From a virus, in the IMG/VR virus record IMGVR_UViG_3300020558_000013, positions 1 through 43,334 of that record: a stretch of 43,334 bases of DNA; one strand, 5' to 3'. A program made the translations under genes and the position numbers. The number at the start of each line of letters is the position of its first letter. Positions within the stretch are counted from its first letter, which is position 1. Under the pieces are notes generated by a model. It had not been told where the DNA came from, did not search any database, and saw only the letters and a program-made list of their open reading frames with translations. Below, piece by piece: positions 1 to 17,749 of this stretch.

Positions 1-815
1 CCACTAGAGAAAGAATGATTAGAAGGTTTGAAGCAGAAGGTTGGGATGCTAAACCCAATTTTGGTGGTGGTATTACTGCTATTAAAAAAACAACAATGGA
101 AGAAGCTAAATTCATGTCTGGTTTACTATCAGGTAAAGATTTTATTAACGCTAAATTAAGAAATTATCCTAAAGCTATAGCTAAAGTGAATCAATTAATT
201 GATATGATTGGTGAATCTAGATTTACAATAGAAATGGCTGAATGGATTTTTGATTTCTTTAATAATGCTTCATTTGAAAGCCCAGTTAATGAAGCAGAAG
301 AAGAAGATAAAGTAGATACTATTACAATGGATGTTCCTTTGTTTATTCGTATGTTAGAATATTCAAGAGAAGATGCTGCTGAAGATATGGATTTACATGA
401 TATCACAGAAAAAGCAATTTCTTTAAATAAAGAAAAAGGTATTTTATCTATGGAAGATTATGATACTATTGTAGGTGCTACTGAAGAAATTGAAGAAGGA
501 TTTTATGGAAGAGGAGATAAAAGAAGAGGTTTACAAAATCAGTCAAAACTATCTTCTGCGGAATATCAAATAGCTAAAAAATTAAAATCTTTTAAAGCGA
601 GTGATTGGAAATGGAATGCGGATGAAGATTTATATAATAAAGTAACTGAAGCTACAGACTACATGAAACGTAGACAAGCCCAAGATGATTACGCTGTTAA
701 TAAAAAAGACAAACCTAAAAAATCATCAAACCCAAATCCTTCAGGTAAAACGGATTATATGAAACGTAGGGAAAAAGAATTAGCTGAGACTATTCTCGCT
801 AAGTTAAAAAAATAA
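1..815 (+). CDS. Unrecognised phage protein, 5' end outside window
   Basis: The reading frame is open from the left edge; the first Met is at base 15, but in-frame codons upstream (T-R-E-R) have no stop, so the gene probably begins before the window. At least 266 residues are visible. I do not recognise a family. It is charged and mostly helical, with an acidic stretch near residues 93-100 and a basic C-terminus. A short motif, TDYMKRR, occurs twice near the C-terminus (around residues 216 and 246), suggesting duplication of a small tail element. A PVNE-A site near residue 91 loosely resembles a prohead protease site. It ends at TAA 813-815, directly against the ATATTTAT box that precedes the next gene. 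By context it belongs to the run of putative internal head proteins; that role is inference. Confidence 0.7.
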   Translation, partial: TRERMIRRFEAEGWDAKPNFGGGITAIKKTTMEEAKFMSGLLSGKDFINAKLRNYPKAIAKVNQLIDMIGESRFTIEMAEWIFDFFNNASFESPVNEAEEEDKVDTITMDVPLFIRMLEYSREDAAEDMDLHDITEKAISLNKEKGILSMEDYDTIVGATEEIEEGFYGRGDKRRGLQNQSKLSSAEYQIAKKLKSFKASDWKWNADEDLYNKVTEATDYMKRRQAQDDYAVNKKDKPKKSSNPNPSGKTDYMKRREKELAETILAKLKK

Positions 816-816
816 C

Positions 817-824
817 ATATTTAT
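817..824 (+). promoter_or_regulatory. ATATTTAT late box before the 750-aa gene
   Basis: Exact ATATTTAT immediately after the stop of the upstream gene and 12 bases before the ATG at 837. It is one of thirteen such boxes at starts of late gene clusters. Whether it is a promoter or an RNA-processing site is not shown by sequence alone. Confidence 0.55.
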
Positions 825-836
825 CACATATATATT

Positions 837-3089
837 ATGACTAAATTTAATTTAAAAGAACATATAGCTAAAAATAAAGCTACATTCTTTGGCTCATTAA
901 CTGAGGGTCAATTCTCTTGGATGACTCAAGATACAGGACAACAAATTGGATCTGAAGAAGAAAACATGATTCCTGTCTACATGTTTGATGATAAAGGCAA
1001 GTACTATTATGAACCAAATTATGATGGATATGGTGTATTTGGTGGTATGGATTACTATGAATTACTAGACCAAATGAATGGCGGTTCAGGTGATAGAAGT
1101 AGAGGTATTGATTTAGCTTTTAATAAAGAAGAAACCTCAACACCTATATTATTCCCTGCTTTAATTACTAGACCTAGTGAGTTTGATTACACAACTCATG
1201 ATTTTACTCAAGAAGCAAAACACGATCCTAATCAATCTTGGTATGCTGCTGAAGAAGATGAAGATTTTATTGATCAAAATGATGAAGAGGTATATGGATA
1301 TGATGATGATGAAGAAGAATTAGAAGAAGGATATATGGGTCAATTTTATGCTCCTGAGTATCTAGAACAAAAATATGGTAAGGAAATGGCTGATAAAATA
1401 ACAGCTGAAATTGAGGAAATGGATGAAAATTCTTATGACAGATTTACTGAATTTACTACTGCTAAAGAAGTTGAAGACTACATTTCAGATATTAAAGATA
1501 TGTTAAATTTAAATGAAGTAAAAACTACAAATACAAAAATGAAAAAATCAGAATTAACAGCTAAAATTAGAGAAATGGTTTTAGCAGAAGCAAATGCTCC
1601 TATTAATATGGTGACTACTATGGATGGAAAAACTGTAGTTGGTACTCACCAATATGGAGTTGGATTTAAAAGCAATGAAGCTGGTCAAAAGATGGGCTTT
1701 AAAGATAATCCTACAAGCATACCTAATGGCACTAAAATGTCTTCATCTAAAGAGGATATGAACGAAGATACTTACGCTCCAACTCCAGAAACAGATTTCT
1801 TAGCCGAATTAGAAGGCATGTTAGATGATAAAAATGGTTTAACTGATCTTCAACAATATGTTTATGATTTTGAATCTAAGGTAAGTGATGAAAGAGATGA
1901 AGAAGAAGAACAAGAGTTTTTAGATGCTATTAAACAATTAAAAACACCACAAGATGTTTATGATTATTATGCTTATGATAGAGGTTGGGAAGGTTCTGAT
2001 CTAGATAATATATTCAAACAAGTAAAAACAAAATTTAAAAATTTAATTACAACAGATGATTTAACTCCTTTTCAAAGAGCAAGATACAGCTATACAAAAG
2101 AAAGATTTGGAAATGATGAAGCTAGAAAATCTTTAGATATAATTAAAACATTTAATACTCAGGAAGAGTTTAATGCTTGGAGAGATAAAAAAATTAAAGA
2201 TGAAAATGACTTAAATAAAGCTAAAAGGGCTAAAGAAGGCACTACTTTAAAAGAAGTTAAAGATGATGAAAATGGTTTAACTCCTCTTCAAAAATACGTT
2301 TACAACTATGAAAAAGATATAAGTGGTGAAGATGAAGCACAACAATTTTTAGATGATATTAAAAAACTTAACACTCCTGATGATGTTTATGATTATTATG
2401 CTTATGATAGAGACTGGGAAGGTTCTATGGATGATGATTTAGATAATATCTTCAGACAAGTAAGCAAAAAATTTAAAAATGTAAGTGAAGCTAAAAAAGA
2501 CAAAGAAACAAATACTGAAGAAGTTACAGACGATGTAACAGATGGTGAAGAAACAGTAGACGTAACTGATGATTTTTCTATGGAAGAACCTCAAGGTCCA
2601 GGTAAAATTGATGTCACTCAAAACGCAAACGCAGATTTAACAGGTACTAAAAAAGACGTTCAAGACAATTTAGAAGCAGCTTTAGAAGCCGCTAGAGCTT
2701 TAGGTGACGAAAAATTAGCTACTCAAGTTGGTAACACAATTACTTTCTTTAATAAGCAGCATGTTGTTAAAGACACTACTGTAGCTGAGAATATAAAAGA
2801 AATTTTATTACTTCAAAAACGAGCTGGTATTATTACAGAAACTCAATATAAACAAAAATTAAATGAAATTTCAGAGGATGAAGATGAAGTGCCTTTAACT
2901 TCAAAAGTAAAATCTTTTATTAATAAAGCTATAGCTGATTCTAAAAAAGATGGAGAATTTGAAGAATTAAAAAAAGCCGATTGGTTTGAAAATGAATTAA
3001 TTGATGAACTTATTGATTTATTCCCAAACAAAGATTATGACAGTGCTTCATCAGAAGTAATAGATTATATTAAAGATAAAATAAAATAA
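837..3089 (+). CDS. 750-aa multi-domain putative internal head protein
   Basis: Large acidic protein of a type I associate with marine T4-like phages, no enzymatic motif seen. Residues 1-230 form one region, beginning MTKFNLKEHIAK and carrying a possible LTE-G site near residue 23. At residue 235 a second Met-initiated element, MKKSELTAKIREMVLAE-A, looks like the N-terminal tags of neighbouring genes, as if an independent gene had been fused. Residues 334-403, 409-455 and 480-549 are three copies of a helical repeat containing L-x-x-(L/F)-Q and, in the outer two, DVYDYYAYDR and WEGS. Residues 600-660 hold a DLTGTKKDVQDNLEAALEAA segment and an (I/V)GNTITFFNK motif; the last 60 residues form another helical domain. 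Repeated (L/I)-x-E sites suggest processing by the gp21-like protease encoded at 18367. The role is inferred; the ORF itself is secure. Confidence 0.75.
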   Translation: MTKFNLKEHIAKNKATFFGSLTEGQFSWMTQDTGQQIGSEEENMIPVYMFDDKGKYYYEPNYDGYGVFGGMDYYELLDQMNGGSGDRSRGIDLAFNKEETSTPILFPALITRPSEFDYTTHDFTQEAKHDPNQSWYAAEEDEDFIDQNDEEVYGYDDDEEELEEGYMGQFYAPEYLEQKYGKEMADKITAEIEEMDENSYDRFTEFTTAKEVEDYISDIKDMLNLNEVKTTNTKMKKSELTAKIREMVLAEANAPINMVTTMDGKTVVGTHQYGVGFKSNEAGQKMGFKDNPTSIPNGTKMSSSKEDMNEDTYAPTPETDFLAELEGMLDDKNGLTDLQQYVYDFESKVSDERDEEEEQEFLDAIKQLKTPQDVYDYYAYDRGWEGSDLDNIFKQVKTKFKNLITTDDLTPFQRARYSYTKERFGNDEARKSLDIIKTFNTQEEFNAWRDKKIKDENDLNKAKRAKEGTTLKEVKDDENGLTPLQKYVYNYEKDISGEDEAQQFLDDIKKLNTPDDVYDYYAYDRDWEGSMDDDLDNIFRQVSKKFKNVSEAKKDKETNTEEVTDDVTDGEETVDVTDDFSMEEPQGPGKIDVTQNANADLTGTKKDVQDNLEAALEAARALGDEKLATQVGNTITFFNKQHVVKDTTVAENIKEILLLQKRAGIITETQYKQKLNEISEDEDEVPLTSKVKSFINKAIADSKKDGEFEELKKADWFENELIDELIDLFPNKDYDSASSEVIDYIKDKIK
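1836..2482 (+). repeat. Three tandem ~50-70-codon protein repeats in the 750-aa gene
   Basis: Units start at about 1836, 2061 and 2274. Units one and three share GLT-x-LQ-x-YVY, an acidic stretch, DVYDYYAYDR and WEGS; the middle unit (LTPFQRARYSYTKERFG...) is shorter and degenerate. The pattern indicates old duplication within the gene. Confidence 0.7.
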
Positions 3090-3095
3090 AAGTAT

Positions 3096-3266
3096 ATGAA
3101 CACACAAGAATTAGCAGAAAAAATCGAGTTATTATTTGAAGAGTTTAAGGCAGAACATGCTAAAACTACTAAAGCAGCTCATGGTCGTGCCCGTAAGGCA
3201 TTAGGTGAAATCAAGAAATTGGTTACTGAGTACCGTAAAGCTTCTATCGACGAAGATAAAAAATAA
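3096..3266 (+). CDS. Histone H1-like (Hc1-type) DNA-binding protein, 56 aa
   Basis: Short ORF of 56 codons, ATG at 3096 and TAA at 3264-3266, fitting exactly between its neighbours (6 bases after the upstream stop, 5 before the next ATG). The first half is acidic and helical (MNTQELAEKIELLFEEFKAE); the second half carries KAAHGRARKALGEIKKL and EYRKAS, the Lys/Arg/Ala pattern of the bacterial histone-H1-like Hc1 family that is widespread in Bacteroidota. The family binds DNA non-specifically and compacts it. Placed among putative internal head proteins, it may be packaged with DNA or act on host or phage nucleoid during infection; that is inference. Codon use is slightly richer in GC-ending codons (CGT, GGT, AAG) than its neighbours, which would fit high expression. 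Confidence 0.7.
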   Translation: MNTQELAEKIELLFEEFKAEHAKTTKAAHGRARKALGEIKKLVTEYRKASIDEDKK

Positions 3267-3271
3267 TAATT

Positions 3272-4744
3272 ATGCTTAACGAGCGTCACCTTACCAAAAC
3301 CGAACTAGAGAAAATTCCAAAAATTCTTAAAAATCTTAAAAAAGAAAAACGTTCTTTAGTTAAACGTTATGGTAAGGACGCTGAAGCAGTTATGTATGGA
3401 AGAGCTATTAACATAGCTAAAAAACAAGCCGAATCAATGAACCAACAAAAACTAAAAGAACTCGTTAGAAAAACCTTACAACAGGAATCTAATTCTAAAC
3501 CTATTACAATGGATGAAACTGGACTTTTTGATAATCTTTTTACTAAAAGAAAAGAAGAATTAAAAAAGAAAGGTATCATTGATAGTAATGACTTAATGCA
3601 CCAGTTTAAGACGAAAAAAACTTTAGAAAATATAAATAAAAAATTATTATTATATGATTTAATTTTTTCAGAAGGATTTAGTCTTGAAGAGCGAAAAAAT
3701 TATGATTATAATTTAATTAAATATTTTGAAACTCCTCAATTCACAGTTGAAGATATTCAATCATATATTTCTCCTTCAAAAAATTATATAAGTCTTAGAG
3801 ATGCTATAAAAGGTTTACTTGAAACTTATGAAGATTATAGATCTGAGATGGGTGAAGGTAAAAATCCTAAAAAAGCTACAAAAGATTATGATGGAGATGG
3901 TGAAATAGAATCATCTGAAGAAGAATATAAAGGTGTTAAAGATAAAGCTATTAAAAAAGCAAAAGGTGTTAAAGAAGGATATTATGGTACTACTAATGTA
4001 GAATCATATATTGAGGCTATTGGATATGATTCATTTGAAGATTTTTTTGAAAATAATCCTGGAGGTGAAGAAGCTTTAATAAGTTGGATTGAAAGCGTTC
4101 CTGATTTTAGAGAAACACTTACAAATTTAGACATACTTAAAGAAGATCTTGACTTAGGTCATGAAGATGACGAACCACATATGATTAAAGCTGAATTATA
4201 TCGTATTGGAAAATACGCTATGGAATTATACCAAATGGTGGATGGATTTGAAGGTAAAGGTGAGGTTGATTTTCCTGCTTGGTGGCAGTCAAAAATTACT
4301 AAAGCCCAAGAAATGATGGTATCAGCTAAACATTACTTAGACTTTGAATTAAAAGAACCAGCTATTGATGCTATGGTAGGTGTGGCTAGTGCTGAAGATA
4401 TGATAGACAATGAAGCTCCAATGATGGAAGGTGAAGTAACTAAAGTAGATAAATTAGCAGCTAAAATTGCTAAAGCTTTAAAAGACCCAAAAAACAAATC
4501 AGCTGAGGATCAAAATAATATCAAACAAGCTAGAAAAGCTATGAATGATGATAAAATTGAAACTGCTGAAAAAATAGCTAAACCTTATATTGATGAGGAT
4601 GTAGTGCCTGGCTCTAATATTAGAAAGGATAGTAAAGGTAAATGGAGAGTTTTATCTGGTAAAACAGGTAAAATGTGGCCTCAAACTTATAATTCTAAAA
4701 AAGACGCTGAAGATGCTTTACAAGCTTATCATGCTAATAAATAA
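3272..4744 (+). CDS. 490-aa phage protein with EF-hand-like loop, putative internal head protein
   Basis: Modular, helical, charged protein. Residues 25-50 contain RSLVKRYGKDAEAVMYGRA, an element I associate with T4-like marine phage proteins. At residue 56 begins MNQQKLKELVRKTLQQE-S, another Met-initiated tag ending in a prohead-protease-like site. Residues 205-216 read DYDGDGEIESSE, matching the EF-hand loop pattern D-x-D-x-D-G-x-I-x-x-x-E, so calcium binding is plausible. Residues 240-420 are an acidic helical domain. The last ~45 residues (GKWRVLSGKTGKMW, then ..KKDAEDALQAYHANK) look like a small separate basic module. No catalytic motif was seen. It follows the Hc1-like gene by 5 bases and precedes the next start by 3, indicating one transcript. 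Function unknown; head-internal role inferred from tags and context. Confidence 0.7.
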   Translation: MLNERHLTKTELEKIPKILKNLKKEKRSLVKRYGKDAEAVMYGRAINIAKKQAESMNQQKLKELVRKTLQQESNSKPITMDETGLFDNLFTKRKEELKKKGIIDSNDLMHQFKTKKTLENINKKLLLYDLIFSEGFSLEERKNYDYNLIKYFETPQFTVEDIQSYISPSKNYISLRDAIKGLLETYEDYRSEMGEGKNPKKATKDYDGDGEIESSEEEYKGVKDKAIKKAKGVKEGYYGTTNVESYIEAIGYDSFEDFFENNPGGEEALISWIESVPDFRETLTNLDILKEDLDLGHEDDEPHMIKAELYRIGKYAMELYQMVDGFEGKGEVDFPAWWQSKITKAQEMMVSAKHYLDFELKEPAIDAMVGVASAEDMIDNEAPMMEGEVTKVDKLAAKIAKALKDPKNKSAEDQNNIKQARKAMNDDKIETAEKIAKPYIDEDVVPGSNIRKDSKGKWRVLSGKTGKMWPQTYNSKKDAEDALQAYHANK

Positions 4745-4747
4745 AAA

Positions 4748-5218
4748 ATGACTAAAGACGAACTAAAAGAGAAGATCAAAGTATTTGTACAACAAGTATA
4801 TAAGCCTAAAACATTAAAGGCTCAGGACACAATCTCTTTAGACGCTCCTAAGTTTCCTGTATTACAAAAATTCCCTGAACTTAAAGATATTATTGTTAAT
4901 TTATTAACAGACCAATATGAGATTTTTGTAACAGATATTCAGTGGGTCGCTCCTAAACCAACAACTTTTAGAATTATACTTGGAAATGGAGAACCTTTTA
5001 TGTTAACTTATTCTCCAAGAAGTTGGGTAGCACAAATTGAAGGTAAAAAATATTACTTATTAAATTTAAGTGAAGAAGAATCAGCTACAGAAGCTATTGC
5101 TCGTGTTTTAGCTTATGGTATGACTGAAGAAAAAACAGAACCAGGAGCTGAAGGTGAAACAGCAGAAACACCTACCGAAGAACCAGCAGCAGAAGAAGAT
5201 ACAACAGCTGAAGCTTAA
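4748..5218 (+). CDS. Unrecognised 156-aa protein with acidic Ala/Glu/Thr tail
   Basis: The protein starts MTKDELKEKIKVFVQQVY, the amphipathic helix type shared by neighbouring genes, but without a clear (L/I)-x-E end. Residues 25-120 look like a compact alpha/beta domain with strands such as FRIILGNGEPFMLTYSP and WVAQIEGKKYYLLNL. The last ~30 residues are a low-complexity tail of Glu, Thr, Ala and Pro, probably disordered. It sits 3 bases after one gene and 2 before the next, so it is translated in the same block. No family was recognised and no enzymatic residues stand out. Confidence 0.65.
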   Translation: MTKDELKEKIKVFVQQVYKPKTLKAQDTISLDAPKFPVLQKFPELKDIIVNLLTDQYEIFVTDIQWVAPKPTTFRIILGNGEPFMLTYSPRSWVAQIEGKKYYLLNLSEEESATEAIARVLAYGMTEEKTEPGAEGETAETPTEEPAAEEDTTAEA

Positions 5219-5220
5219 TT

Positions 5221-6147
5221 ATGAATATATCTAGAGAACATATTGCTTTTACTTTAGGTATTCCTATTCCTCTTAATGAATCAGTTAATGTAAATGAATC
5301 TTTAAGATTACGTATTATTCACGAACAATTAATATATGAATCATTTTTAGATTCAATTAAAACCTTTGCTAAAGAAAAATTTAATCAAGTAATAACAACT
5401 ATTAAAGATTGGAAAGACGCAGCTGTTGTTATGGGTAAGGTATTGTCTAATGGAGATTTACTAAATGATTTTTTAAAACCATTAGAAAGAAGAGTAGAAA
5501 AATTAATTCAACCACTTACAGATTTTCTTAAAAAAATTAAATTAGATTCTTTTATTGAAAAAATTAAACAATTTATAGATAAAATTAAATCCTTACAAGG
5601 TTGGAAAAAATTTATGGCCTTAGTTACAGCAGGAAGTATAATAACTTTTATTATAGAAAAATTAAAATCTTTAGCTCCTGATGCTGTTAAAGATTTTTTA
5701 ACAAAATACTTTTCACCTACATTCGTAACAGACGTTTTAGGGAAATTAACAGATTTTCAATCGTATTTAGGATTTTTACAACCTATTGTAAAAGGAGTTG
5801 AAATTATATTTAATTTTTTAAAACCATTAATAGAAGCATTTGCTGTCGCTCTTAAATCTGGAGGGAAATTAGCAACAAAATTAATAAAAGAAAACAAAAT
5901 GAAAAAATCAGACTTAAAAAAATTAATTAAAGAACAAATATTAAACGAGTTAGAAACTGGGAAACCTGAAGTAGTTACTTTAAGTAAATATTTAGCCACA
6001 GCTGGTAAAACTGCTTTAAGTAGTATAAATGATATCAATGAATTAGAATCTGTTTTAAACATGATTTTTGATGGTATGAATACTACTTTAAAATCTAGTT
6101 CTAAATTAACTCCACTTTTAAATAAACTTAAAACAAAATTCAAATAA
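5221..6147 (+). CDS. 308-aa Lys-rich helical putative internal head protein with embedded start tag
   Basis: The N-terminus has several closely spaced (L/I)-x-E or related sites (PLNE-S, VNE-S, IIHE-Q, LIYE-S, residues 18-40), suggesting a heavily processed leader. Residues 45-225 are almost entirely amphipathic helix rich in Lys, Ile, Leu and Phe, with a short membrane-like stretch near residues 131-147 (ALVTAGSIITFII). At residue 227 (base 5899) begins MKKSDLKKLIKEQILNE-L, a near copy of tags at the starts of neighbouring genes, followed by an ~80-residue helical domain. Two ancestral genes may have fused here, or 5899 may serve as an internal start. The helix-rich, membrane-like composition could suit a protein that contacts membrane during DNA delivery, but this is speculative. 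Confidence 0.65.
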   Translation: MNISREHIAFTLGIPIPLNESVNVNESLRLRIIHEQLIYESFLDSIKTFAKEKFNQVITTIKDWKDAAVVMGKVLSNGDLLNDFLKPLERRVEKLIQPLTDFLKKIKLDSFIEKIKQFIDKIKSLQGWKKFMALVTAGSIITFIIEKLKSLAPDAVKDFLTKYFSPTFVTDVLGKLTDFQSYLGFLQPIVKGVEIIFNFLKPLIEAFAVALKSGGKLATKLIKENKMKKSDLKKLIKEQILNELETGKPEVVTLSKYLATAGKTALSSINDINELESVLNMIFDGMNTTLKSSSKLTPLLNKLKTKFK

Positions 6148-6148
6148 A

Positions 6149-7123
6149 ATGGATGCCCTAGATCTGTTTTTTAAAAAATACAGTTACAAATTTGATAAGG
6201 GATATCCTGATATCAGTAATCCTAAGGACAAAAGATTATTGTTTGAATTAATAGGAAATATTACTGGTGATAAAAATATTAATGAAGCTCAATCTGATTA
6301 TGATCAAAGGATACGTAAAGCTTTAGGTTTACAAGAAAATGAATCAATTCCAACTTGTAAAACTTCTTTAACTTTAGGTACTGATTTTAATTTAGAAGGT
6401 GAAGATGAAGGTATTTGGTCTAAATTATATCCTATTTTACCATTAAAAAAAGACAGTGATGTTCCAACAGCGGGAGCTGGTAAAGGAGAAATAGCTACTT
6501 ATTGGGCTTTTGAATATAATGCTAAACCACACACTGTAACTGACTCAAGAAAAGGTGAAGACCCGGATTTAACTATTGATGGGTATGGATGTGAAATTAA
6601 ATCATATGATACATCAAATATTACTTTAGGTAAATTTGCTAATGATAAAGAAAATGTAGCTTTACTAAATAAAGTATTTGGTATTTTAACATTATTTAGT
6701 GAGTTTGATGAAACAAAACAAATCACAATCAATCCAGGTAACTTTAAAGCTAGAGATATTGTTCCTGCTTTTTCTATTATGGCTAGTCTTGAAAAAAATA
6801 AAGCATTAAGAGATGTAGAAATGTTTAAACCTTTATATTCTCGTATTGATTCATTATATGCTAAATTAGGTTTATCATCTGATGCTACTGCTGAAGAAGG
6901 TGCTGCTAAACTTTTAAAAAGAATACTAAAAACTAAACTTCTTAAAAAACCAAGAATGGGTAAAGAAATAGGATTTATATTAAACGTAAGTGAAACAGGA
7001 CAAGGTAAATTTTATACTATAAATGATGCTATAGTGGATGCTATAGATGATGAAAGAATATTAAATGGTGTTTATGTTTCTTCATCAGAGTTAGGAATGA
7101 ATTTTCCTAAATTATTTAAGTAA
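6149..7123 (+). CDS. Candidate PD-(D/E)XK-type nuclease in the internal-protein cluster
   Basis: The first 45 residues (DLFFKKYSYKFDKGYPD ... NINE-A) form a short N-terminal module ending in a possible prohead protease site. The central part has the order expected for a restriction-endonuclease fold: Glu114 in GKGEIATYW, then EDPDLTIDGYGCEIKSYD with Asp140, Glu149 and Lys151, matching D-x(n)-E-x-K. A helix precedes the first acidic residue, as in that superfamily. Residues 230-324 are a mixed C-terminal domain ending in FPKLFK. T4 packages internal proteins that act on host restriction or host DNA after injection; a nuclease carried in this region could do likewise, but this is inference. It is preceded by one base and followed by a late box at 7123. 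The ORF is secure; the nuclease assignment is moderate. Confidence 0.55.
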   Translation: MDALDLFFKKYSYKFDKGYPDISNPKDKRLLFELIGNITGDKNINEAQSDYDQRIRKALGLQENESIPTCKTSLTLGTDFNLEGEDEGIWSKLYPILPLKKDSDVPTAGAGKGEIATYWAFEYNAKPHTVTDSRKGEDPDLTIDGYGCEIKSYDTSNITLGKFANDKENVALLNKVFGILTLFSEFDETKQITINPGNFKARDIVPAFSIMASLEKNKALRDVEMFKPLYSRIDSLYAKLGLSSDATAEEGAAKLLKRILKTKLLKKPRMGKEIGFILNVSETGQGKFYTINDAIVDAIDDERILNGVYVSSSELGMNFPKLFK

Positions 7124-7130
7124 TATTTAT
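7123..7130 (+). promoter_or_regulatory. ATATTTAT late box before 7135
   Basis: TAATATTTATAAC overlaps the TAA stop of the nuclease-like gene and leaves only four bases to the ATG at 7135. If it is a -10-type element, the transcript would be essentially leaderless. Confidence 0.55.
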
Positions 7131-7134
7131 AACT

Positions 7135-7767
7135 ATGAATTTAAAACAGTTAATTAGGGAAACTTTAGAAAATAAGGATTGTTGTACAGCGACAAAGCCA
7201 ACTAAAGCGCCTATATTAAACGAAAGTGTTGCTCCGCGAGAGATATTGTCTGAGGGATTAAAGTACCATATAGACAATAAAAAACCGCTTACTGAGCATG
7301 TATACCGCGCTGGTTCATCAAATTATTTTAATTTATGGGCTGAAGCGAGAACATTATACACTCGTGGTATTTTAGATTTTTCAGGTGATGATTTAGCTAT
7401 ATTAACCGAAACACATTTAGGTGAATTTGGTATTTATGAAGATAAAAAAGTTCCATTAGATTTCATAATGGAAGATATGGAACTAGAAGAAGAAAAAAAA
7501 GACCCACCAATTGGTAAACCAAAACGTGGTGGAGCTAAAAAGTTTTATGTTTATGTAAAAGATAAAGGTAAAATTAAAAAAGTATCCTTTGGTGATACTT
7601 CAGGCTTATCAGCTAAAATAAATAATTCAAAAGCAAGAGCTGCTTTTTCTAAAAGACATGATTGTCCTAACAAAAAAGATAGAACTAAAGCATCTTATTG
7701 GTCTTGTCGTTTACCTCGCTACGCTAAATTATTAGGATTAAAGTCAAACTTTTCAGGATTTTGGTAA
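7135..7767 (+). CDS. 210-aa tagged protein with conserved phage C-terminal basic domain
   Basis: The start MNLKQLIRE-T is a capsid-targeting-like helix; further (L/I)-x-E sites follow (ILNE-S, ILSE-G, residues 25-41). Residues 120-210 form a basic domain: GKPKRGGAKKFYVYVKD, then KKVSFGDTSGL, ..FSKRHDC, YWSCRLPRYAKLLGL and a C-terminal GFW. I recall this arrangement from uncharacterised proteins of large marine phages, and the two late Cys plus His suggest possible metal binding or a structural core. It is separated from the upstream gene by the late box and overlaps the next gene by one base (TAATG), indicating translational coupling. Biochemical role unknown; likely virion-associated by context. 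Confidence 0.65.
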   Translation: MNLKQLIRETLENKDCCTATKPTKAPILNESVAPREILSEGLKYHIDNKKPLTEHVYRAGSSNYFNLWAEARTLYTRGILDFSGDDLAILTETHLGEFGIYEDKKVPLDFIMEDMELEEEKKDPPIGKPKRGGAKKFYVYVKDKGKIKKVSFGDTSGLSAKINNSKARAAFSKRHDCPNKKDRTKASYWSCRLPRYAKLLGLKSNFSGFW

Positions 7768-8198
7768 TGGAAGATAAATTAAAAAAACTTATTAAAGAAA
7801 TAATTACTGAAAAAAAACTTTGTAAAAAAGGCGAAGCATATCGTCAAAGAAGAATGAAACCTAAATCTAAAGGAGGCGGAGGTGAAAAACATTCAGCTTA
7901 TCTTTCAGGTAGAGCCGCTAAAGTATGTAAGGGACAAATTGATGAAGAACAATTAAAAAAAATAATTCAAGAAAGTCTTCGTGATTGGTTTAAGGAAAAA
8001 TGGGTTCGTATAGATACACAAGGTAATATAACTGGTGATTGTGGTACTATGAAAAAAGGTAAAGCTACAACTCGTTGTTTACCCCAAGCAAAAGCTCAAT
8101 CTTTATCCCAATCTGAAAGAAGATCAACAGTTGCTAAAAAGATAGCTGGGGGTAAAAAAGGAAAACAATTTGTGAAAAATACTAAAAAAGCACAATAA
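7767..8198 (+). CDS. 143-aa basic protein with two tag-plus-domain units
   Basis: I chose ATG 7767, which overlaps the preceding TAA, over an upstream TTG. The protein begins MEDKLKKLIKEIITE-K, then CKKGEAYRQRR and AYLSGRAAKVCKG. A second tag, DEEQLKKIIQE-S, starts at about residue 51 and leads into LRDWFKEKWVRIDTQG, DCGTMKKGKATTRCLPQAKA, LSQSERRS and an AGGKKGKQFV tail. The second unit resembles a small domain of unknown function I recall from cyanophages and giant viruses, with two conserved Cys. The protein is strongly basic, so nucleic-acid binding inside the head is plausible. Two tagged units in one chain repeats the fusion pattern seen in neighbouring genes. Confidence 0.65.
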   Translation: MEDKLKKLIKEIITEKKLCKKGEAYRQRRMKPKSKGGGGEKHSAYLSGRAAKVCKGQIDEEQLKKIIQESLRDWFKEKWVRIDTQGNITGDCGTMKKGKATTRCLPQAKAQSLSQSERRSTVAKKIAGGKKGKQFVKNTKKAQ

Positions 8199-8203
8199 GC
8201 CAA

Positions 8204-8533
8204 ATGATTAAATTTCAAGATATATTAAACGAAGCAAAAAAAGTTAAAGAAACTTTTGAAGAGTTTGCTAAAACTAGAGGTGAAGGTGCATCTAAAATAG
8301 CAGATACAGCTCAATCAAAAGGTGGTTTAGCTATGTTAACTTATAATCATTTTAAAGTTAAAGCTCCTTACTATGATAAAGCATCAAAAGGTAAATTTGA
8401 TGAAAAAAAGGCTAAACAAGAATTTAATCAAACCTTAGGAAAAATATCTCTTAATATGTCTCCTGTAGATTTTCAAAGAGAAGTTGGTCGTTTAGAGGTT
8501 TTAGGTGAACTTTTAATTAGAAATAAAAAATGA
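8204..8533 (+). CDS. 109-aa internal-head-protein candidate with T4-like targeting leader
   Basis: The first ten residues, MIKFQDILNE, followed by Ala, closely parallel the capsid-targeting leader of T4 internal protein III (MKTYQEFIAE-A as I recall it), which gp21 removes after Glu. The rest is a single helical, Lys-rich domain (residues 11-109) with KVKETFEEFAKTRGEG and FNQTLGKISLNMSPVDFQRE segments and no catalytic motif. It overlaps the next gene by 4 bases (ATGA). A matching leader occurs in the very next gene, so the two probably share a fate. The leader assignment is inferred from similarity; the domain function is unknown. Confidence 0.65.
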   Translation: MIKFQDILNEAKKVKETFEEFAKTRGEGASKIADTAQSKGGLAMLTYNHFKVKAPYYDKASKGKFDEKKAKQEFNQTLGKISLNMSPVDFQREVGRLEVLGELLIRNKK

Positions 8534-8955
8534 TCAATTTATTAGATATACTAAGTGAGGCAGAGGTAGCAAAATGCCCTGCACCAACTCAAAATATTGA
8601 ACTTAATCTCCAGAATAGACAGAAGGCAATTAATGAGTATGGATATGGTCCCTTAAATCCTAATCAACCAAATAATAAATTCTGGCAGGCTAAAGCAGAT
8701 ATGTGGAAGCTTGATTCTGTAAAAGAAGCTAAAACATCTCGTTGTGGTAATTGCGCTGCTTTTGATGTTACAACTAAAACATTAGATTGTATAGCTAAAG
8801 GGATTGGTGATGATGAAGGTACTGAAGATCCATTTGATGTTATTGAAGCAGGCCAATTAGGATACTGCAGGTTTTTAAAATTTAAATGTGCTGCGGCTCG
8901 AACTTGTGATGCTTGGGTTGTAGGTGGTCCTATCACAAATGACAAAGCCGTATAA
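8530..8955 (+). CDS. 141-aa Cys-rich phage protein with T4-like targeting leader
   Basis: The leader MINLLDILSE-A matches the preceding gene's. The mature part starts near CPAPTQNIELNLQNRQKAIN and contains YGYGPLNP, then a Cys-rich segment: RCGNCAAF (Cys72, Cys75), Cys87, LGYC (Cys113), FKCAAARTCDAW (Cys120, Cys126); Cys16 makes seven in all. I recall this block from virion-associated or hypothetical proteins of T4-like cyanophages. The Cys spacing suggests a zinc site or disulfide-stapled domain. The gene starts inside the stop of its neighbour and overlaps the next gene by 17 bases. The exact function is unknown. Confidence 0.65.
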   Translation: MINLLDILSEAEVAKCPAPTQNIELNLQNRQKAINEYGYGPLNPNQPNNKFWQAKADMWKLDSVKEAKTSRCGNCAAFDVTTKTLDCIAKGIGDDEGTEDPFDVIEAGQLGYCRFLKFKCAAARTCDAWVVGGPITNDKAV

Positions 8956-9211
8956 AGATTTAGAGGTTACAGACAAATACATTATTAGGGAATTTGATGA
9001 AAACATTGACCCTATAGAGCTAATGTGGCATCGTGATGATGAAGATAGAACAATTGAAATTATTGAACCAGGTAAAGGATGGAAATTCCAGTTTGAAAAT
9101 GAATTACCTTGGAATTTGGAACCTAACCTTTTGATATGTATATTAAGACATGAGTGGCACCGAGTTATAAAAGGCGAAGGAAAACTTGTAATTAAAATAA
9201 ATAAAGACTGA
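8939..9211 (+). CDS. 90-aa cupin-like phage protein
   Basis: The in-frame ATG at 8939 is preferred over an upstream TTG at 8924 because it gives the start MTKPYKDLEVTDKYIIREF, which I recall from cyanophage homologues. The sequence alternates short strands: TIEIIEPGKGWKFQFENELP, LLICILRHEWHRVIKGEG and KLVIKINKD, consistent with a single small cupin-type beta barrel; His76 and His79 in the HEWHR segment could be metal ligands. No targeting leader is visible. The gene overlaps its upstream neighbour by 17 bases and is followed by a terminator, so it closes the left-hand operon. Substrate unknown. Confidence 0.6.
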   Translation: MTKPYKDLEVTDKYIIREFDENIDPIELMWHRDDEDRTIEIIEPGKGWKFQFENELPWNLEPNLLICILRHEWHRVIKGEGKLVIKINKD

Positions 9212-9253
9212 TTCATAGCCAGTCGCTCGCAAGAGTCTAATATATGGCAGCTG

Positions 9254-9280
9254 TGGCGCCCCTAAAAAGGTGCCATCTTT
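9254..9280 (+). terminator. Intrinsic terminator closing the left gene block
   Basis: Stem TGGCGCC (9254-9260) pairs with GGTGCCA (9269-9275) with one G-T wobble, loop CCTAAAAA, followed by TCTTT. It separates the left-hand late genes from the FAD gene. The region 9212-9317 holds no other gene. Confidence 0.65.
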
Positions 9281-9282
9281 AA

Positions 9283-9314
9283 TTTGGCTTTTAGTGTAAA
9301 GTATGATATATTAA
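9283..9314 (+). promoter_or_regulatory. Bacteroidota-type promoter for the FAD gene
   Basis: TTTGGC at 9283 and TATATTAA at 9307-9314, with TTTG to TATATTAA spaced by 20 bases, fit the host consensus TTTG / TAnnTTTG. The same elements at the same spacing occur at 10679-10710. The ATG at 9318 lies only 3 bases beyond, implying a very short or no leader from this ATG; the next in-frame ATG at 9324 is an alternative. Confidence 0.65.
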
Positions 9315-9317
9315 CAA

Positions 9318-10676
9318 ATGAACATGAATAAGAAAATTGTAATTGTAGGAGCAGGTGTAGCAGGTGTTAATGCCGCTACTAAATTAGTTGACAATGGTTA
9401 TCCAGGCAAAAACATTACTATCATTGACATGGGTAATGATCCTTACAACCGAAAACCAGAAGAAGTAATGACAGGTTTTCTAGGTGCTGGAGGTTGGTCT
9501 GATGGTAAATTGACTTACCATACAGCAATTGGAGGTCAACTTTCAAAGTATGTTGGTGAAAAGAAAGCAATGGAATTAATGGATGAAGTTATTAATAACT
9601 TTAAACGATTTCACCCTAAACCTGAAGAAGTACAATGTTCAAATCCAGTAGAAGAACCAGACTTTATTAAACCATATTTTGGTCTTCGTTTATTTCCTGT
9701 ATGGCATGTTGGTACAGATTATCTTCATGAAATTGGTAAGAATTGGTATGATTATTTAGTGTCTAAAGGTGTTAAGTTTGTTTGGAATGAACGTGTGTTT
9801 AAAGTTGACTTTGAATCTAATTTAGTTTATGTAACTGTTAAAGGCAAAGAAGGACAATATGCTATTGAATATAATGAATTGATTTTTGGAGTAGGTAAAT
9901 CAGGTATTGACTTTGCTCAAAGTATTCAAGACGAATATCAACTAGAAACTGAACCTAAATCAGTACAAATTGGAGTTCGATTTGAAGCACCACAAAAACA
10001 CTTTCAGAAACTAATTGACATTAGTTATGATTTTAAATTGTATCGTAAGTTTGAAGATAAAGGTGTTTCATTACGTTCGTTTTGTACTAATAATAATGCC
10101 GCTTATGTTGCTGTAGAAGACACTTACGGTAATCATTCATATAATGGTCATGCTAAAAAAGATGAACGTTATAGAAACAACATGACTAACTTTGGTATTA
10201 TTATGGAAATTAATAACATTGAAGATCCATTTGCTTGGTCTCGTAAAGTAGTAAATGAATTACAGTTTGCTGGAACAGGTTTATATTATAGTCCATCTCG
10301 TAAACCATCAACAACATCAGAAGGTGAAAGAGTTAGTTCTGTTCAAATTGATAATTTAAGTATTGTAAGACAGGGAATGGGTGAGTATTGGGATTATATT
10401 GAAGACTTTATTGAAGATATGAAAAAAGTATTTCCAACATTACAAGATGATTGGGGTGTTTATGTTCCTGAAGTAAAATATCTTTCACCTGAACCACTTG
10501 TTTATCATAGTGATTTAGCTTTAGTTGAATACCAGAATGTTCACTTTGTAGGAGATGCTTTATCAGCTCGTGGTATTACAGTATCAGGTGCTCAAGGTAT
10601 TTTAGCTGTATCTAAATTAATTAATAAAGGATGCGAGTGGGATAATTTGCATGGTGATATTATTAGCTGGAAATAA
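9318..10676 (+). CDS. FAD-dependent oxidoreductase (COG2509-like)
   Basis: Flavoprotein of 452 residues, near usual length for this group. The N-terminal Rossmann motif is KIVIVGAGVAGVNAA (GAGVAG at 11-16). GAGGWSDGKLT near residue 56 and GVSLRSFCTNNNAAYVA near residue 242 correspond to conserved blocks of the uncharacterised FAD-dependent dehydrogenases related to COG2509. The C-terminal FAD motif is NVHFVGDALSARG followed by SGAQGILAVSKL (residues ~411-437). The substrate is unknown; such enzymes may act on geranylgeranyl-like or other reduced compounds, but nothing here decides it. It would be an auxiliary metabolic gene in a phage. Two ATGs are available (9318 and 9324); both leave all motifs intact. 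Unlike the late genes it has a host-type promoter and no late box, suggesting earlier expression. Confidence 0.75.
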   Translation: MNMNKKIVIVGAGVAGVNAATKLVDNGYPGKNITIIDMGNDPYNRKPEEVMTGFLGAGGWSDGKLTYHTAIGGQLSKYVGEKKAMELMDEVINNFKRFHPKPEEVQCSNPVEEPDFIKPYFGLRLFPVWHVGTDYLHEIGKNWYDYLVSKGVKFVWNERVFKVDFESNLVYVTVKGKEGQYAIEYNELIFGVGKSGIDFAQSIQDEYQLETEPKSVQIGVRFEAPQKHFQKLIDISYDFKLYRKFEDKGVSLRSFCTNNNAAYVAVEDTYGNHSYNGHAKKDERYRNNMTNFGIIMEINNIEDPFAWSRKVVNELQFAGTGLYYSPSRKPSTTSEGERVSSVQIDNLSIVRQGMGEYWDYIEDFIEDMKKVFPTLQDDWGVYVPEVKYLSPEPLVYHSDLALVEYQNVHFVGDALSARGITVSGAQGILAVSKLINKGCEWDNLHGDIISWK

Positions 10677-10678
10677 TG

Positions 10679-10710
10679 TTTGGCTTTTTGTAAAAAATAT
10701 GTTATATTAA
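10679..10710 (+). promoter_or_regulatory. Second Bacteroidota-type promoter
   Basis: TTTGGC at 10679 and TATATTAA at 10703-10710 repeat the elements and exact spacing seen upstream of the FAD gene. It begins two bases after the FAD stop and ends 4 bases before the ATG at 10715. Confidence 0.65.
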
Positions 10711-10714
10711 TATT

Positions 10715-10963
10715 ATGAGTGATAAAAATAAATTTCAACCAAGTAAAAAATTAGTAAAAGCTGATGGTACTATTGCTTGGGTTTGGGAAGGGAAATTGCA
10801 CAATATGGAAGAAGCAGCTTTAATCCATCCAAATGGTAAAAAAGAATATCATATTCATGGTATTCAATATAGTCATGATGATTGGAAAGAAAGAAGACGC
10901 AATCGTGAAGGTTTACCTTGGTACAAAACAGCAATGGGTCAGGCAGGTCAAAATAGAAACTAA
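10715..10963 (+). CDS. 82-aa conserved phage protein of unknown function
   Basis: Small polar protein with DGTIAWVWEGKLHNMEEAAL, IHPNGKKEYHIHGIQYS and RNREGLPWYK segments. I recall similar small proteins in T4-like phages, with the W-x-W-x-G-x-L-H-N and HPNGKKEY motifs as the conserved core, resembling the short strand repeats that describe a small beta fold. No catalytic assignment is possible. It starts 4 bases after the second host-type promoter and ends 1 base before the kinase-like gene, so these two form an operon. A longer ORF in another frame overlapping it (from 10833) is an artefact of an upstream start. Confidence 0.65.
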   Translation: MSDKNKFQPSKKLVKADGTIAWVWEGKLHNMEEAALIHPNGKKEYHIHGIQYSHDDWKERRRNREGLPWYKTAMGQAGQNRN

Positions 10964-10964
10964 T

Positions 10965-11495
10965 ATGAAGATAGGATTGTGTGGAACAATGAGTGTAGGT
11001 AAAACTACATTGGTAAATGCTTTGAAAGAATTACCTGAATTTGCAGATTATAATTTTGCTACTGAACGTTCTAAGTACTTGCGTGATTTAGGTATTCCAT
11101 TGAATACTGATTCAACATTAAAAGGTCAATTTATATTTTTAGCTGAACGTTGTGCTGAGTTAATGTATGAAAATATTATTACAGATCGTACTGTAATTGA
11201 TGTTATGGCGTTTACTAAAGCAGCTAAATCAATTGATTATTATGAGGCTGAAGCGTTTTGTGATGCTGCTTATAAATTAGTTGAAGAATATGATTATATT
11301 TTTTATGTATCTCCTGTTGGTGTTGAAATGGAAGATAATGGAGTTAGAACTACTGATTTGAAATATAGAGAAACTATTGACAGTATTATTCATTTGATTT
11401 TATATAGAAGTAGTCATAAAATTAAAAAACTAGTTGAACTTTCAGGTACTACTGAAGAACGTATTGCAAAAATTAAAGAAACAATCTTTGGTTGA
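10965..11495 (+). CDS. NadR-like / AAA_28-type P-loop kinase
   Basis: The ATG at 10965, one base after the previous stop, gives a 176-residue protein starting MKIGLCGTMSVGKTT, with the P-loop GTMSVGKT at residues 7-14. Downstream features fit the NadR-kinase-like AAA_28 family: ITDRTVIDVMAF near residue 72, YDYIFYVSPVG near 110, and EDNGVRTTDLKYRETID near 122, the usual D-G-x-R-T segment. The family includes ribosylnicotinamide kinase domains and uncharacterised ATP-dependent small-molecule kinases. In phages, a role in NAD salvage or nucleotide metabolism is plausible but unproven. It is co-transcribed with the 82-aa gene and its stop merges with a late box. Confidence 0.75.
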   Translation: MKIGLCGTMSVGKTTLVNALKELPEFADYNFATERSKYLRDLGIPLNTDSTLKGQFIFLAERCAELMYENIITDRTVIDVMAFTKAAKSIDYYEAEAFCDAAYKLVEEYDYIFYVSPVGVEMEDNGVRTTDLKYRETIDSIIHLILYRSSHKIKKLVELSGTTEERIAKIKETIFG

Positions 11496-11502
11496 TATTT
11501 AT
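11495..11502 (+). promoter_or_regulatory. ATATTTAT late box before 11507
   Basis: Starts on the last base of the kinase stop and lies 4 bases before ATG 11507. It marks the switch from host-type promoters to the head module. Confidence 0.55.
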
Positions 11503-11506
11503 TATC

Positions 11507-11947
11507 ATGAAATTGTCTGAATTAAAGAAGCAAATTAAAGATAACATATACGAACTTTTATCTGAAGATACTAAACCAACATCTGATGTAATTAAAAAAA
11601 CATATAATGAAATGTTTGGTAAAAATCCATCTACTACCTTTAATGATGTAGCTAAAAAATTAGGAACAGATGAGCAAACAATAGCTGCTGTTTTATTTGG
11701 TTTTCCTGTATTTGAATCAGATGATGAAGACCAAGAACCATCAAAAGCAGAATTAGAAAAAAAAGATTCAATCACTACTGCTTCAAATAAATTACAAAAA
11801 CTTGTAACTAAAATGAAAGAATTAGCTAAAGAATACACTGAAGCTAAAGGTGATAAAAAAGAAAAAATTAAGGATGAATTAAAAAAATTAACTGCTGATA
11901 AAAAAGCATTAGAAAAAATTATTCTTCCTTCTTCTGAAGAAGATTAA
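11507..11947 (+). CDS. 146-aa tagged coiled-coil protein upstream of the terminase block
   Basis: ATG 11507 is preferred to TTG 11492, which would overlap the late box. The start MKLSELKKQIKDNIYELLSE-D is the amphipathic tag seen in the left-hand cluster, ending in L-S-E. Residues 25-65 look like a small helical domain (FNDVAKKLGTDEQTIAAVLFG, helix-turn-helix-like). Residues 75-146 are Lys/Glu-rich and probably coiled-coil. By position near the large terminase it could be considered for small terminase, but the tag and composition fit an internal head protein at least as well. It is 1 base from the spanin-like gene that follows. Function undecided. Confidence 0.6.
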   Translation: MKLSELKKQIKDNIYELLSEDTKPTSDVIKKTYNEMFGKNPSTTFNDVAKKLGTDEQTIAAVLFGFPVFESDDEDQEPSKAELEKKDSITTASNKLQKLVTKMKELAKEYTEAKGDKKEKIKDELKKLTADKKALEKIILPSSEED

Positions 11948-11948
11948 T

Positions 11949-12290
11949 ATGAAAAAATTTGTTTTACAATTGGTTTTAGTTTGTTTATTAGGTGTAATAA
12001 TCTATGGGTTATTTACTTATAAACAAGGTTATTCCTCAGACAAAGACAAACAATACCAAAAAACTATAGATTCTTTAGCGCTTGAAATTAGTAAAAAAGA
12101 CACAATTATTTCATCTTTAGATTCTACTAGGAAAATTTTAGACTCATTAATTGAAATAGACAAAGCTAAATTAGCTGGTATTGCTAAAAAAGCTCAACAA
12201 TACAAAGACCAATATGAAAAAGAACGCGATCGCCTTAATAGTATGTCTGATGATGATATCATCAGCCAGTTCACAACAGCGTTTAAGTGA
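11949..12290 (+). CDS. Candidate inner-membrane spanin (Rz-like), 113 aa
   Basis: N-terminal Lys pair followed by one membrane segment (about residues 5-23, VLQLVLVCLLGVIIYGL), then a periplasmic-type helical region rich in Lys, Asp and Gln up to residue 100. This is the architecture of an i-spanin, the inner-membrane half of the complex that disrupts the outer membrane at lysis in Gram-negative hosts. Support comes from the next gene, which begins inside this one in another frame and encodes a signal-peptide protein, the usual Rz/Rz1 arrangement. No sequence family was recognised, which is normal for spanins. No endolysin or holin is seen nearby. Confidence 0.5.
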   Translation: MKKFVLQLVLVCLLGVIIYGLFTYKQGYSSDKDKQYQKTIDSLALEISKKDTIISSLDSTRKILDSLIEIDKAKLAGIAKKAQQYKDQYEKERDRLNSMSDDDIISQFTTAFK

Positions 12291-12621
12291 TTCAACGGTA
12301 ATAGTTCCCATTAAATCCTTAAAAAATGCTTTATTAGTTAAAGCTGATAGAGATAATCTTAAAAAAGAATTAGTAATTTCTCGTGACTCTATCTCTACTA
12401 TGAGTACAATTATCCTTAGACAAGATAGTGCCTTATTTATTTGTGATACTACAAGAATAGTTTTAGAAGGTAAAATAGAAGATCAAAAGGGCATTATTAA
12501 AGCTAAAGACGGACAGATTGAAGAAAGAAATAAAAAGATAACTGACCTTGAATCTAAATTTAGAGGTATTGTAGGTGCTTTCTTTATAACAACAATTGGT
12601 TTTCTAGTAGCTCTTTTATGA
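12214..12621 (+). CDS. Candidate outer spanin / envelope protein nested in the previous gene
   Basis: ATG 12214 gives a clear signal peptide, MKKNAIALIVCLMMISSASS; the TTG at 12181 would add residues in front of it. The gene overlaps the previous one by 77 bases in another frame. After the signal, residues 25-115 are mostly coiled-coil (DNLKKELVISRDS, then EGKIEDQKGIIKAKDGQIEE). A second hydrophobic segment (about residues 117-133, VGAFFITTIGFLVALL) ends the protein. A Cys at residue 11 is not in a good lipobox, so it is not a textbook Rz1 lipoprotein; the two-ended membrane layout recalls unimolecular spanins. It ends with an ATGA overlap into the terminase gene. A lysis role is inferred. 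Confidence 0.45.
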   Translation: MKKNAIALIVCLMMISSASSQQRLSDSTVIVPIKSLKNALLVKADRDNLKKELVISRDSISTMSTIILRQDSALFICDTTRIVLEGKIEDQKGIIKAKDGQIEERNKKITDLESKFRGIVGAFFITTIGFLVALL

Positions 12622-17737: not shown

Positions 17738-17744
17738 TATTTAT
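17737..17744 (+). promoter_or_regulatory. ATATTTAT late box before 17750
   Basis: TAATATTTATAAC overlaps the stop of the 75-aa gene and lies 5 bases before ATG 17750. Confidence 0.55.
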
Positions 17745-17749
17745 AACAA

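Follow-up and report, generated by a model that had tools for sequence, protein, structure and literature searches.

Why do so many neighbouring genes of one phage genome begin with a short helix that ends in (L/I)-x-E? The question is raised by the window analysed here, a stretch of 43,334 bases from a virus record (IMG/VR record IMGVR_UViG_3300020558_000013), and by the resemblance of these leaders to the capsid targeting sequence (CTS) of the internal proteins of phage T4. A first-pass annotation of the DNA had tentatively read the genes at 837-11947 as a set of proteins packed in the head and injected into the host. We consider it probable, at roughly 0.7, that these T4-type leaders target cargo to the head, where the phage protease would free the payloads for delivery with the DNA. 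Capsid targeting by such a leader is well supported by sequence comparison, because the same register occurs on cyanophage virion proteins, the targeting and processing positions of T4 IPIII are conserved, and a Peptidase_S77 protease is encoded. By analogy with T4, we infer packaging, cleavage after Glu and delivery of the window's own proteins.

In the T4 genome (NC_000866), ipII and ipIII start with the leader MKTYQEFIAE/A (the slash marks the cleavage site, which for T4 follows the review cited next and is putative elsewhere), and ipI has a longer start with ITE/A at residue 19. Passages of a 2022 review (PMC9026906) report that residues 4 and 7 of T4 IPIII serve targeting and residues 8 and 10 serve processing, that gp21 cleaves after L/I-x-E, and that internal proteins and the scaffold protein gp22 purify together; they also propose that the CTS lets T4-like phages pack varied proteins. 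In the phages studied here, a leader of 10 residues, M-I-K-L-x-[DN]-I-L-x-E (class A), stands in front of many different proteins. Its conserved positions 4, 7, 8 and 10 are the targeting and processing positions of T4 IPIII, a correspondence shown for class A only. A CTS is expected to be an N-terminal leader about 10-19 residues long with (L/I)-x-E at its end, and such leaders were found; two window genes (8204 and 8530, named by their start positions) are in exact register with MKTYQEFIAE/A.

The likeness to T4 comprises a 10-residue N-terminal leader (ipII, ipIII) with hydrophobic residues at positions 4, 7 and 8 and Glu at position 10, a gp21-type protease, and varied payloads behind a common leader. 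In contrast to T4, there are far more carriers, the main consensus is MIKLxDILxE instead of MKTYQEFIAE, and additional leader classes and internal leader copies occur. Pfam and PHROG scans of the payloads gave no match to an internal protein; no direct alignment to IPI, IPII or IPIII was made. The ejection proteins of phages phiKZ and SPN3US are similar in that propeptides on head proteins are processed by a protease, but according to the available passages on these phages they differ in their long propeptides, their A-x-E or S-x-E motifs and their S80 protease.

The window is 99.995% identical to oriented bases 6651-49984 of a 135,792-base IMG/VR contig (G001), so that the gene surroundings of the window can be read. 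In a comparison of terminases, the nearest isolate was Flavobacterium phage immuto (58.6% identity; isolated on Flavobacterium sp. LMO8), followed by Microcystis phage Mel-JY01 at 50.8%. The source would be a T4-like phage, perhaps of the host group Bacteroidetes, with a cargo block centred in the window. Open reading frames (ORFs) were called with a simple ATG-only, longest-first script, and some starts are wrong. Besides class A, we distinguished class B (of the type K-x-L-K-x-L-I-K-E), class C (ending in SLTE/G, as in gene 837), class D ([RK]-x(1-2)-Q-x-[LR]-A-G-[ILV]) and class E (the start of gene 6149); the patterns of classes B, C and D were made by hand. The genes with leaders or leader-like peptides in the window are listed below.

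837-3089, plus strand: 750-aa protein with class C leader MTKFNLKEHIAKNKATFFGSLTE/G (837-905), ending in SLTE/G
3272-4744, plus strand: 490-aa protein; class B peptide MNQQKLKELVRKTLQQE within the chain (3437-3487)
4748-5218, plus strand: 156-aa protein; its start is of class B but degenerate, without clear Glu site
5221-6147, plus strand: 308-aa protein; class B peptide MKKSDLKKLIKEQILNE within the chain (5899-5949)
6149-7123, plus strand: class E leader with a conserved start; the payload contains GKGE...PDLTIDGYGCEIK and is nuclease-like by motif alone
7135-7767, plus strand: phrog_7595-like protein (PHROG) with class B/A leader MNLKQLIRE/T (7135-7161)
7767-8198, plus strand: small basic protein with class B leader MEDKLKKLIKEIITE (7767-7811); weak DUF5872 match (0.00063, below cut-off)
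8204-8533, plus strand: 109-aa protein of family 18 with leader MIKFQDILNE/A (8204-8233), exact T4 register
8530-8955, plus strand: Cys-rich protein with leader MINLLDILSE/A (8530-8559), exact T4 register; L4, L8 and E10 conserved
11507-11947, plus strand: protein with class B leader MKLSELKKQIKDNIYELLSE/D (11507-11566); similar start in the relatives shown
17750-18367, plus strand: head-block protein of a conserved family with leader MEKTLQQQYNLIKE/G (17750-17791)

Seven of these leaders are credible in our judgement (837, 7135, 7767, 8204, 8530, 11507 and 17750). The first-pass annotation had counted at least eight; the six that it quoted are all present where it placed them, but the total is one lower. 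Apart from 8204 and 8530, leader lengths are less close to T4, with 9 residues in 7135, 14 in 17750, 15 in 7767, 20 in 11507 and 23 in 837. The general pattern M-x(3-14)-[LIVMF]-[LI]-x-E matched eleven ORFs in the window and missed 837 and 11507. By judgement, five of the eleven were taken as cargo leaders (7135, 7767, 8204, 8530 and 17750), five were not taken as cargo (8939, the terminase at 12618, 16138, the scaffold-like 19177, and 26420), and 3096 was left undecided.

Within family 18, all 16 members counted, of 27, share E10 and hydrophobic residues at positions 4, 7 and 8 with gene 8204. Similarly, all 36 counted members of the 8530 family, out of 66, retain L4, L8 and E10. These counts left out 11 members of the former and 30 of the latter, in which the anchor was missing or the leader length was different. 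Homologues of 8530 carry the annotation 'high potential iron-sulfur protein' in other records, and two of its seven homologues in a phage collection were read, both without this leader. The relatives of 7135 (a loose cluster) have a class A, a class B or no helix leader, and a relative of 7767 carries the class A leader MIKLIDILLE. Gene 17750 (QYNLIKE/G) belongs to a conserved head-block family, in which 17 of 29 members match the leader pattern.

Leader-like peptides also occur within the chains. The protein of gene 837 contains a class B peptide at 1539-1589 and the class D-like peptide LLLQKRAGIITE at 2805-2840. The stretch that matches the internal peptide of 5221 is the start of a separate gene in the related locus L110. 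In phage immuto, the homologue of 3272 is fused to that of 4748; by eye, the 4748 protein resembles the C-terminal module of immuto gp192, and gp192 unites 3272-like and 4748-like stretches around a class B peptide.

To study the class A leader, we pooled the proteins of 160 related loci, four long contigs and two isolate regions, 2,857 distinct sequences in all. In total, 152 of the 2,857 proteins matched the exact-register pattern, compared to 5.5 expected by shuffling (maximum 12 in 50 shuffles). The carriers fall into 46 clusters, or 38 groups with payload linkage at E <= 1e-3; the clusters were built by single linkage from residue 26 on, which mixes some unrelated proteins (clusters 1, 11, 20 and 26) and splits some related ones. 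Exact-register carriers made up 4 of 168 ORFs in G001, 9 of 201 in G002, 4 of 176 in G005, 1 of 220 in G003, 2 of 55 in the immuto part and 1 of 47 in the Mel-JY01 part, against an expectation of 0.05 to 0.4 per genome. Alignment of 34 carriers gave the consensus MIKLxxILxE, with no common sequence beyond the leader; M1 and E10 were invariant, as imposed by the selection, and some of the 34 are related (three ADP-ribosyltransferase-like proteins and four with DUF6934). When one cluster at a time was left out, a family-weighted profile recovered 37 of the 46 clusters.

Because the exact-register pattern fixes positions 4, 7, 8 and 10, we repeated the selection on residues 1-3 only, which yielded 204 proteins in 86 clusters. 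In this control selection, the frequency of hydrophobic residues was 0.68 at position 4, 0.66 at position 7, 0.59 at position 8 and 0.52 at position 5, against a background of 0.31. Glu at position 10 had a frequency of 0.38 against a background of 0.07. Proteins starting with M-K-x showed no excess of Glu at this position (0.07).

The window also encodes a T4-like head module (Pfam, PHROG), with the S77 protease, Gp23 capsid protein and Portal_T4 portal of gp20/gp21/gp23-type head assembly.

12618-14183, plus strand: terminase large subunit, T4 type (family match)
14212-16104, plus strand: portal, T4 gp20 type (Pfam Portal_T4, 1.3e-68)
18367-18972, plus strand: prohead protease, T4 gp21 kind (Pfam Peptidase_S77, 1.3e-28; phrog_207, 3.9e-54)
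19177-20412, plus strand: core scaffold-like protein, directly 5' of the capsid gene (position and composition)
20453-22234, plus strand: major capsid protein Gp23 (Pfam Gp23, 7.6e-77)

The Peptidase_S77 match bears out the gp21-like protease named in the first-pass annotation. The protease gene has a possible self site, QLTE/G, at 18367-18426, and the likely propeptide site of Gp23 is QLVTE/S at residue 60. In 21 capsid relatives picked by the motif NQAKQ, the residues that follow were LVxE (19), IVxE (1) and LIxE (1). The scaffold-like protein had no family match in the Pfam and PHROG scans, and its name rests on position and composition.

Leaders are concentrated around this module. We defined the head block of G001 as the 20.5 kb before the terminase through the capsid gene, with limits of our own choice. 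The general pattern occurred at the start of 21 of the 168 ORFs of G001. The block, with 31 ORFs, held 13 of these, and the other 137 ORFs held 8 (hypergeometric p = 2e-6); shuffled N-termini gave a mean of 2.15 matches in the block (maximum 8 in 500 shuffles). The block also held 15 of 21 matches in G005 (p = 1e-7), 13 of 22 in G002 (p = 2e-6) and 14 of 15 in the immuto part (p = 1e-3). The reading of 837-11947 as a tagged set needs some corrections: some of the leader-like peptides are internal, tagged genes also lie beyond the window on its upstream side (G001 212-4449), and four genes in 8924-11495, one of them oxidoreductase-like, have in our judgement no credible leader. In G001, G002, G003 and G005, the untagged oxidoreductase-like gene at 9318-10676 (PF07992, 1.8e-8) and a P-loop gene at 10833-11495 (GTMSVGKTTLVNAL) precede the terminase in a conserved order.

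Virion proteins with such leaders are found in published proteomes of cyanophages. For the T4-like cyanophage S-CREM2, Table 3 of PMC10665884 gives 52 virion proteins. Among those in the table, the S-adenosylmethionine (SAM) hydrolase starts with MKDFDSFLEE/F (Pfam S-AdoMet_lyase, 2.3e-19), the kinase with MKRFDAFLTE/E, the cytidylyltransferase with MKNFSSFLTE/A, and the hypothetical proteins 13 and 136 with MKDLHSFLTE/Q and MQTFSMFFSE/D, respectively. Furthermore, a virion protein annotated as Cas9 contains RFASFMAE/A at residues 18-25; this protein (gp12, L200:7704-10313) had no Pfam match at E <= 0.01, and its name may need checking. Exact-register leaders occurred in 6 of 219 annotated coding sequences of S-CREM2, and five of the six are in the virion table (p = 0.003), although the pattern was set after the S-CREM2 leaders had been seen and this value is not an independent test.

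The virion NMNAT of cyanophage S-SCSM1 starts with MKSFLQFLKE/A. Besides S-CREM2 and S-SCSM1, passages of published studies report a cytidylyltransferase in virions of S-SM1 (PMC3037559) and S-SZBM1 (PMC9146016). Its start reads MKKFSAFLSE/A in Syn9, MKSFSQFLTE/T in P-SSM2 and MRFRQFIIE/A, a 9-residue leader, in S-SZBM1; the homologue of E. coli phage PBECO4 starts at the enzyme core, without a leader. As the S-CREM2 cytidylyltransferase found one locus only among viral contigs, the conservation of its leader rests on S-CREM2, S-SCSM1 and four phages read by hand. T4-like cyanophages thus have a cytidylyltransferase-like virion enzyme, with a T4-register leader in S-CREM2 and S-SCSM1; compared with the phages studied here, their hosts differ and their leaders are of the kind MKxFxxFLxE. 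The authors of PMC10665884 and PMC9602691 leave open whether such enzymes are packed or left over from infection, and the available passages of these papers mention no targeting leader.

The leader class is interchangeable between phages on one and the same payload. Leaders in the 8530 family were of class A in 43 and of class C in 2 of 66 members. The family of G001:1033 has class A once and class B twice among four members, family 42 has class A five times and class C once among eight, and the loose family 26 has class C three times and class D once among 16. Class E occurred at 57 loci, with 14 full-length matches and 43 partial matches that run from the start over 27 to 129 residues. Selection by KGYPD gave 59 distinct class E proteins in 8 payload clusters, unlinked at the BLAST cut-off used.

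The class D pattern had 37 matches in the 2,857 proteins, against 0.5 expected. Sixteen of these were N-terminal (in 14 clusters), 18 were C-terminal and 3 internal. Judged by their start, 16 of the 18 C-terminal cases are scaffold-like proteins, and 12 of these 16 lie directly 5' of a capsid-like gene. The scaffold-like protein of the window likewise has a C-terminal tail, QFTRWQKLAGIK (about 20371-20409), that resembles a class D leader. These likenesses suggest that class D cargo may borrow the docking tail of the scaffold. A 429-aa protein of G002 (L186-L194, oriented 7004-8293) has a class A N-terminus together with a scaffold-like C-terminal tail, RLQRLAGL.

Several payloads resemble enzymes. 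In the part of G001 upstream of the window, the leader MIGLISLLKE/V precedes a Zeta-toxin-like kinase (PF06414, 2e-16), and leaders also precede an 832-aa cytidylyltransferase-like protein (PF01467, 0.0039) and an NT5C-like protein (1.7e-4), both below the cut-off. A relative of the Zeta-like kinase (28% identity, start MIPFILKE/G) is encoded by Pelagibacter phage HTVC008M, next to a cytidylyltransferase-like gene; by eye, a DMDGV-type phosphatase is nearby. The class A carrier L112, from a related locus, had no Pfam match. Its predicted structure (pLDDT 70) had seven PDB matches at E <= 0.001, of which six were DarT and one a tRNA 2'-phosphotransferase, with TM-scores by query of only 0.41-0.48. 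DarT and tRNA 2'-phosphotransferase belong to the ADP-ribosyltransferase superfamily. The L112 payload is, according to the model, a DarT-like ADP-ribosyltransferase fold. A class A leader on such a payload, which is DarT-like and not encoded in the window, invites comparison with T4 Alt, a head-packaged ADP-ribosyltransferase.

Functions of the window's own cargo are less clear. Pfam and PHROG scans of the window cargo gave no function, only two or three families of unknown function (phrog_7595, 23735 and 14910); weak Pfam matches (HflK_N, ATP-synt_D, AdoMet_Synthase and others) were all below the cut-off and were not used. The motifs G-x-G-E, D-P-D-L and E-x-K are invariant in 11 of 11 payloads of the 6149 type; a PD-(D/E)XK nuclease reading was kept as motif only, since the structural model had no PDB match at E <= 0.001. 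For an ADP-ribosyltransferase reading of L128 and L129, which are related to L112 in sequence, Pfam had nothing above the cut-off, and a kinase-like reading of L137:1304, L139:297 and L162:3367 was dropped for want of a supporting Pfam match. Elsewhere, a class A leader precedes a small protein with a ParB_N match (L116:1018-1404; 1e-7, above the cut-off). In phage immuto (L162), gp189 (12262-12576) is annotated as 'tRNA(Ile2) C34 agmatinyltransferase' and gp194 (17632-18633) as 'cob(I)alamin adenosyltransferase'. Since gp189 is the homologue of 8204 (66% identity) and a class C leader stands at the start of gp194, both annotations look doubtful.

How might the system work? Cargo proteins are synthesised with an N-terminal leader, as is seen in the sequence. 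Residues 4 and 7 would dock the cargo onto the core of the assembling prohead, as in T4, and the S77 protease of gp21 type would cut after (L/I)-x-E at residue 10 and so release the payload into the head interior ahead of DNA entry. The payload would then be present in the mature head, as is supported for the leader carriers of cyanophages, and it would leave with the DNA to act early in the host. Classes B, C, D and E probably do the same job as class A, whether their payload is shared or variable, with class D cargo behaving as if it had borrowed a docking peptide of the scaffold. A wider reading is a general head-loading system, in which interchangeable address peptides, one of them copying the C-terminal tail of the scaffold and sometimes several per chain, sit on rapidly exchanged enzyme payloads that enter the host together with the DNA and disarm it ahead of phage gene expression. 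The arsenal would include a kinase, an ADP-ribosyltransferase, a nucleotidase and a nucleotidyltransferase, and in cyanophages a SAM lyase and the protein annotated as Cas9. We put this wider reading forward tentatively, at somewhat less than an even chance.

Several observations weigh against head targeting and delivery by these leaders. The exact T4 register occurs in just two window genes, the capsid site is mainly V-x-E rather than (L/I)-x-E, and enrichment in the block was weak or absent in G003 (6 of 19, p = 0.05) and the Mel-JY01 part (5 of 5, p = 0.08). With an earlier, looser pattern, 5 of 10 S-CREM2 matches were in the virion table (p = 0.06), and with a relaxed version 6 of 15 (p = 0.11). 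Only 5 of the 28 non-structural or hypothetical S-CREM2 virion proteins in the table have the leader. In S-SCSM1, one of three exact-register ORFs is labelled as a virion protein, the others being a hypothetical protein and a recombinase. Literature searches yielded no virion proteome for this phage or for any near relative; in the available passages of PMC7077304, the word 'immuto' and a proteome are both absent. The leaders could even be products of chance, as AT-rich genomes give starts rich in Lys, Ile and Leu, and the triplet (L/I)-x-E occurs very often. Loose patterns indeed match many other genes (34 of 56 matches in G001 lie outside the block), and in S-CREM2 the matches include several short ORFs that are absent from the virion table. 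However, shuffles and internal windows yield far fewer matches, and conservation is position-specific, with E10 in every counted member of two payload-defined families; we consider chance the least probable explanation.

More serious is the possibility that the leaders mark proteins of the prohead core, which, like T4 gp67 and gp68, assist in building the head and are afterwards broken down or leave it, with no delivery at all. The block adjoins the scaffold and protease genes, some carriers have several internal hydrophobic-x-E sites, and passages of PMC9026906 describe that T4 core proteins are processed into many pieces. Such a role fits poorly with enzyme-like carriers (the Zeta-like kinase, the NT5C-like and cytidylyltransferase-like proteins below the Pfam cut-off, and the DarT-like fold in a relative), and enzymes of this type have been detected in purified cyanophage virions according to the published tables; we therefore consider it unlikely. 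Alternatively, short amphipathic helices can bind many partners, and the leaders might serve another assembly step by tethering proteins to the portal, neck, tail or host membrane. The few tagged genes far from the head block (G002 7004, 149704 and 161388) would suit such tethering. Yet register and key positions are those of the T4 CTS and the site suits the protease class, so that we regard tethering as highly improbable, though slightly less so than chance. The balance remains with head targeting and delivery, held at the level given above because part of the invariance in the alignment was imposed and the 46 clusters shrink to 38. The T4-type reading of the first-pass annotation is partly supported, in that the comparison backs targeting, but it had missed the several interchangeable classes, the enzyme-like genes upstream and the untagged genes within its region.

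Some further features of the window are recorded here. Very long collagen-like genes with GTSGSSG repeats lie beside tail genes at 26848-29739 and about 39938-43334; the second extends past the end of the window and encodes 1651 aa in G001. A structural-looking protein at 22583-23362 contains the short tandem repeat FVTNSQTSS/FVTNSQTGS. Between two conserved genes, a GIY-YIG-like gene at 25108-25644 is perhaps a homing endonuclease, judged from its translation by eye.

The CTS itself is already known, and we regard the set of many carriers and several leader classes as a new variant of the T4 system. In the open literature, only the review PMC9026906 joined capsid targeting with cyanophages, and among the open-literature titles and abstract openings listed, with subscription papers outside the scope, none connected leaders of this kind with virion enzymes in cyanophages or in Bacteroidetes phages. 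If our interpretation is true, the proteins packed in the head of a T4-like phage could be predicted from sequence by a 10-residue rule. It would also give a reason for the recurrent cytidylyltransferase and other enzymes in cyanophage virions, which, in the passages available, the authors could not separate from contamination. The likeness of class D to the scaffold tail offers a concrete docking hypothesis. Moreover, a large pool of uncharacterised and possibly host-directed proteins of aquatic phages would become directly testable.

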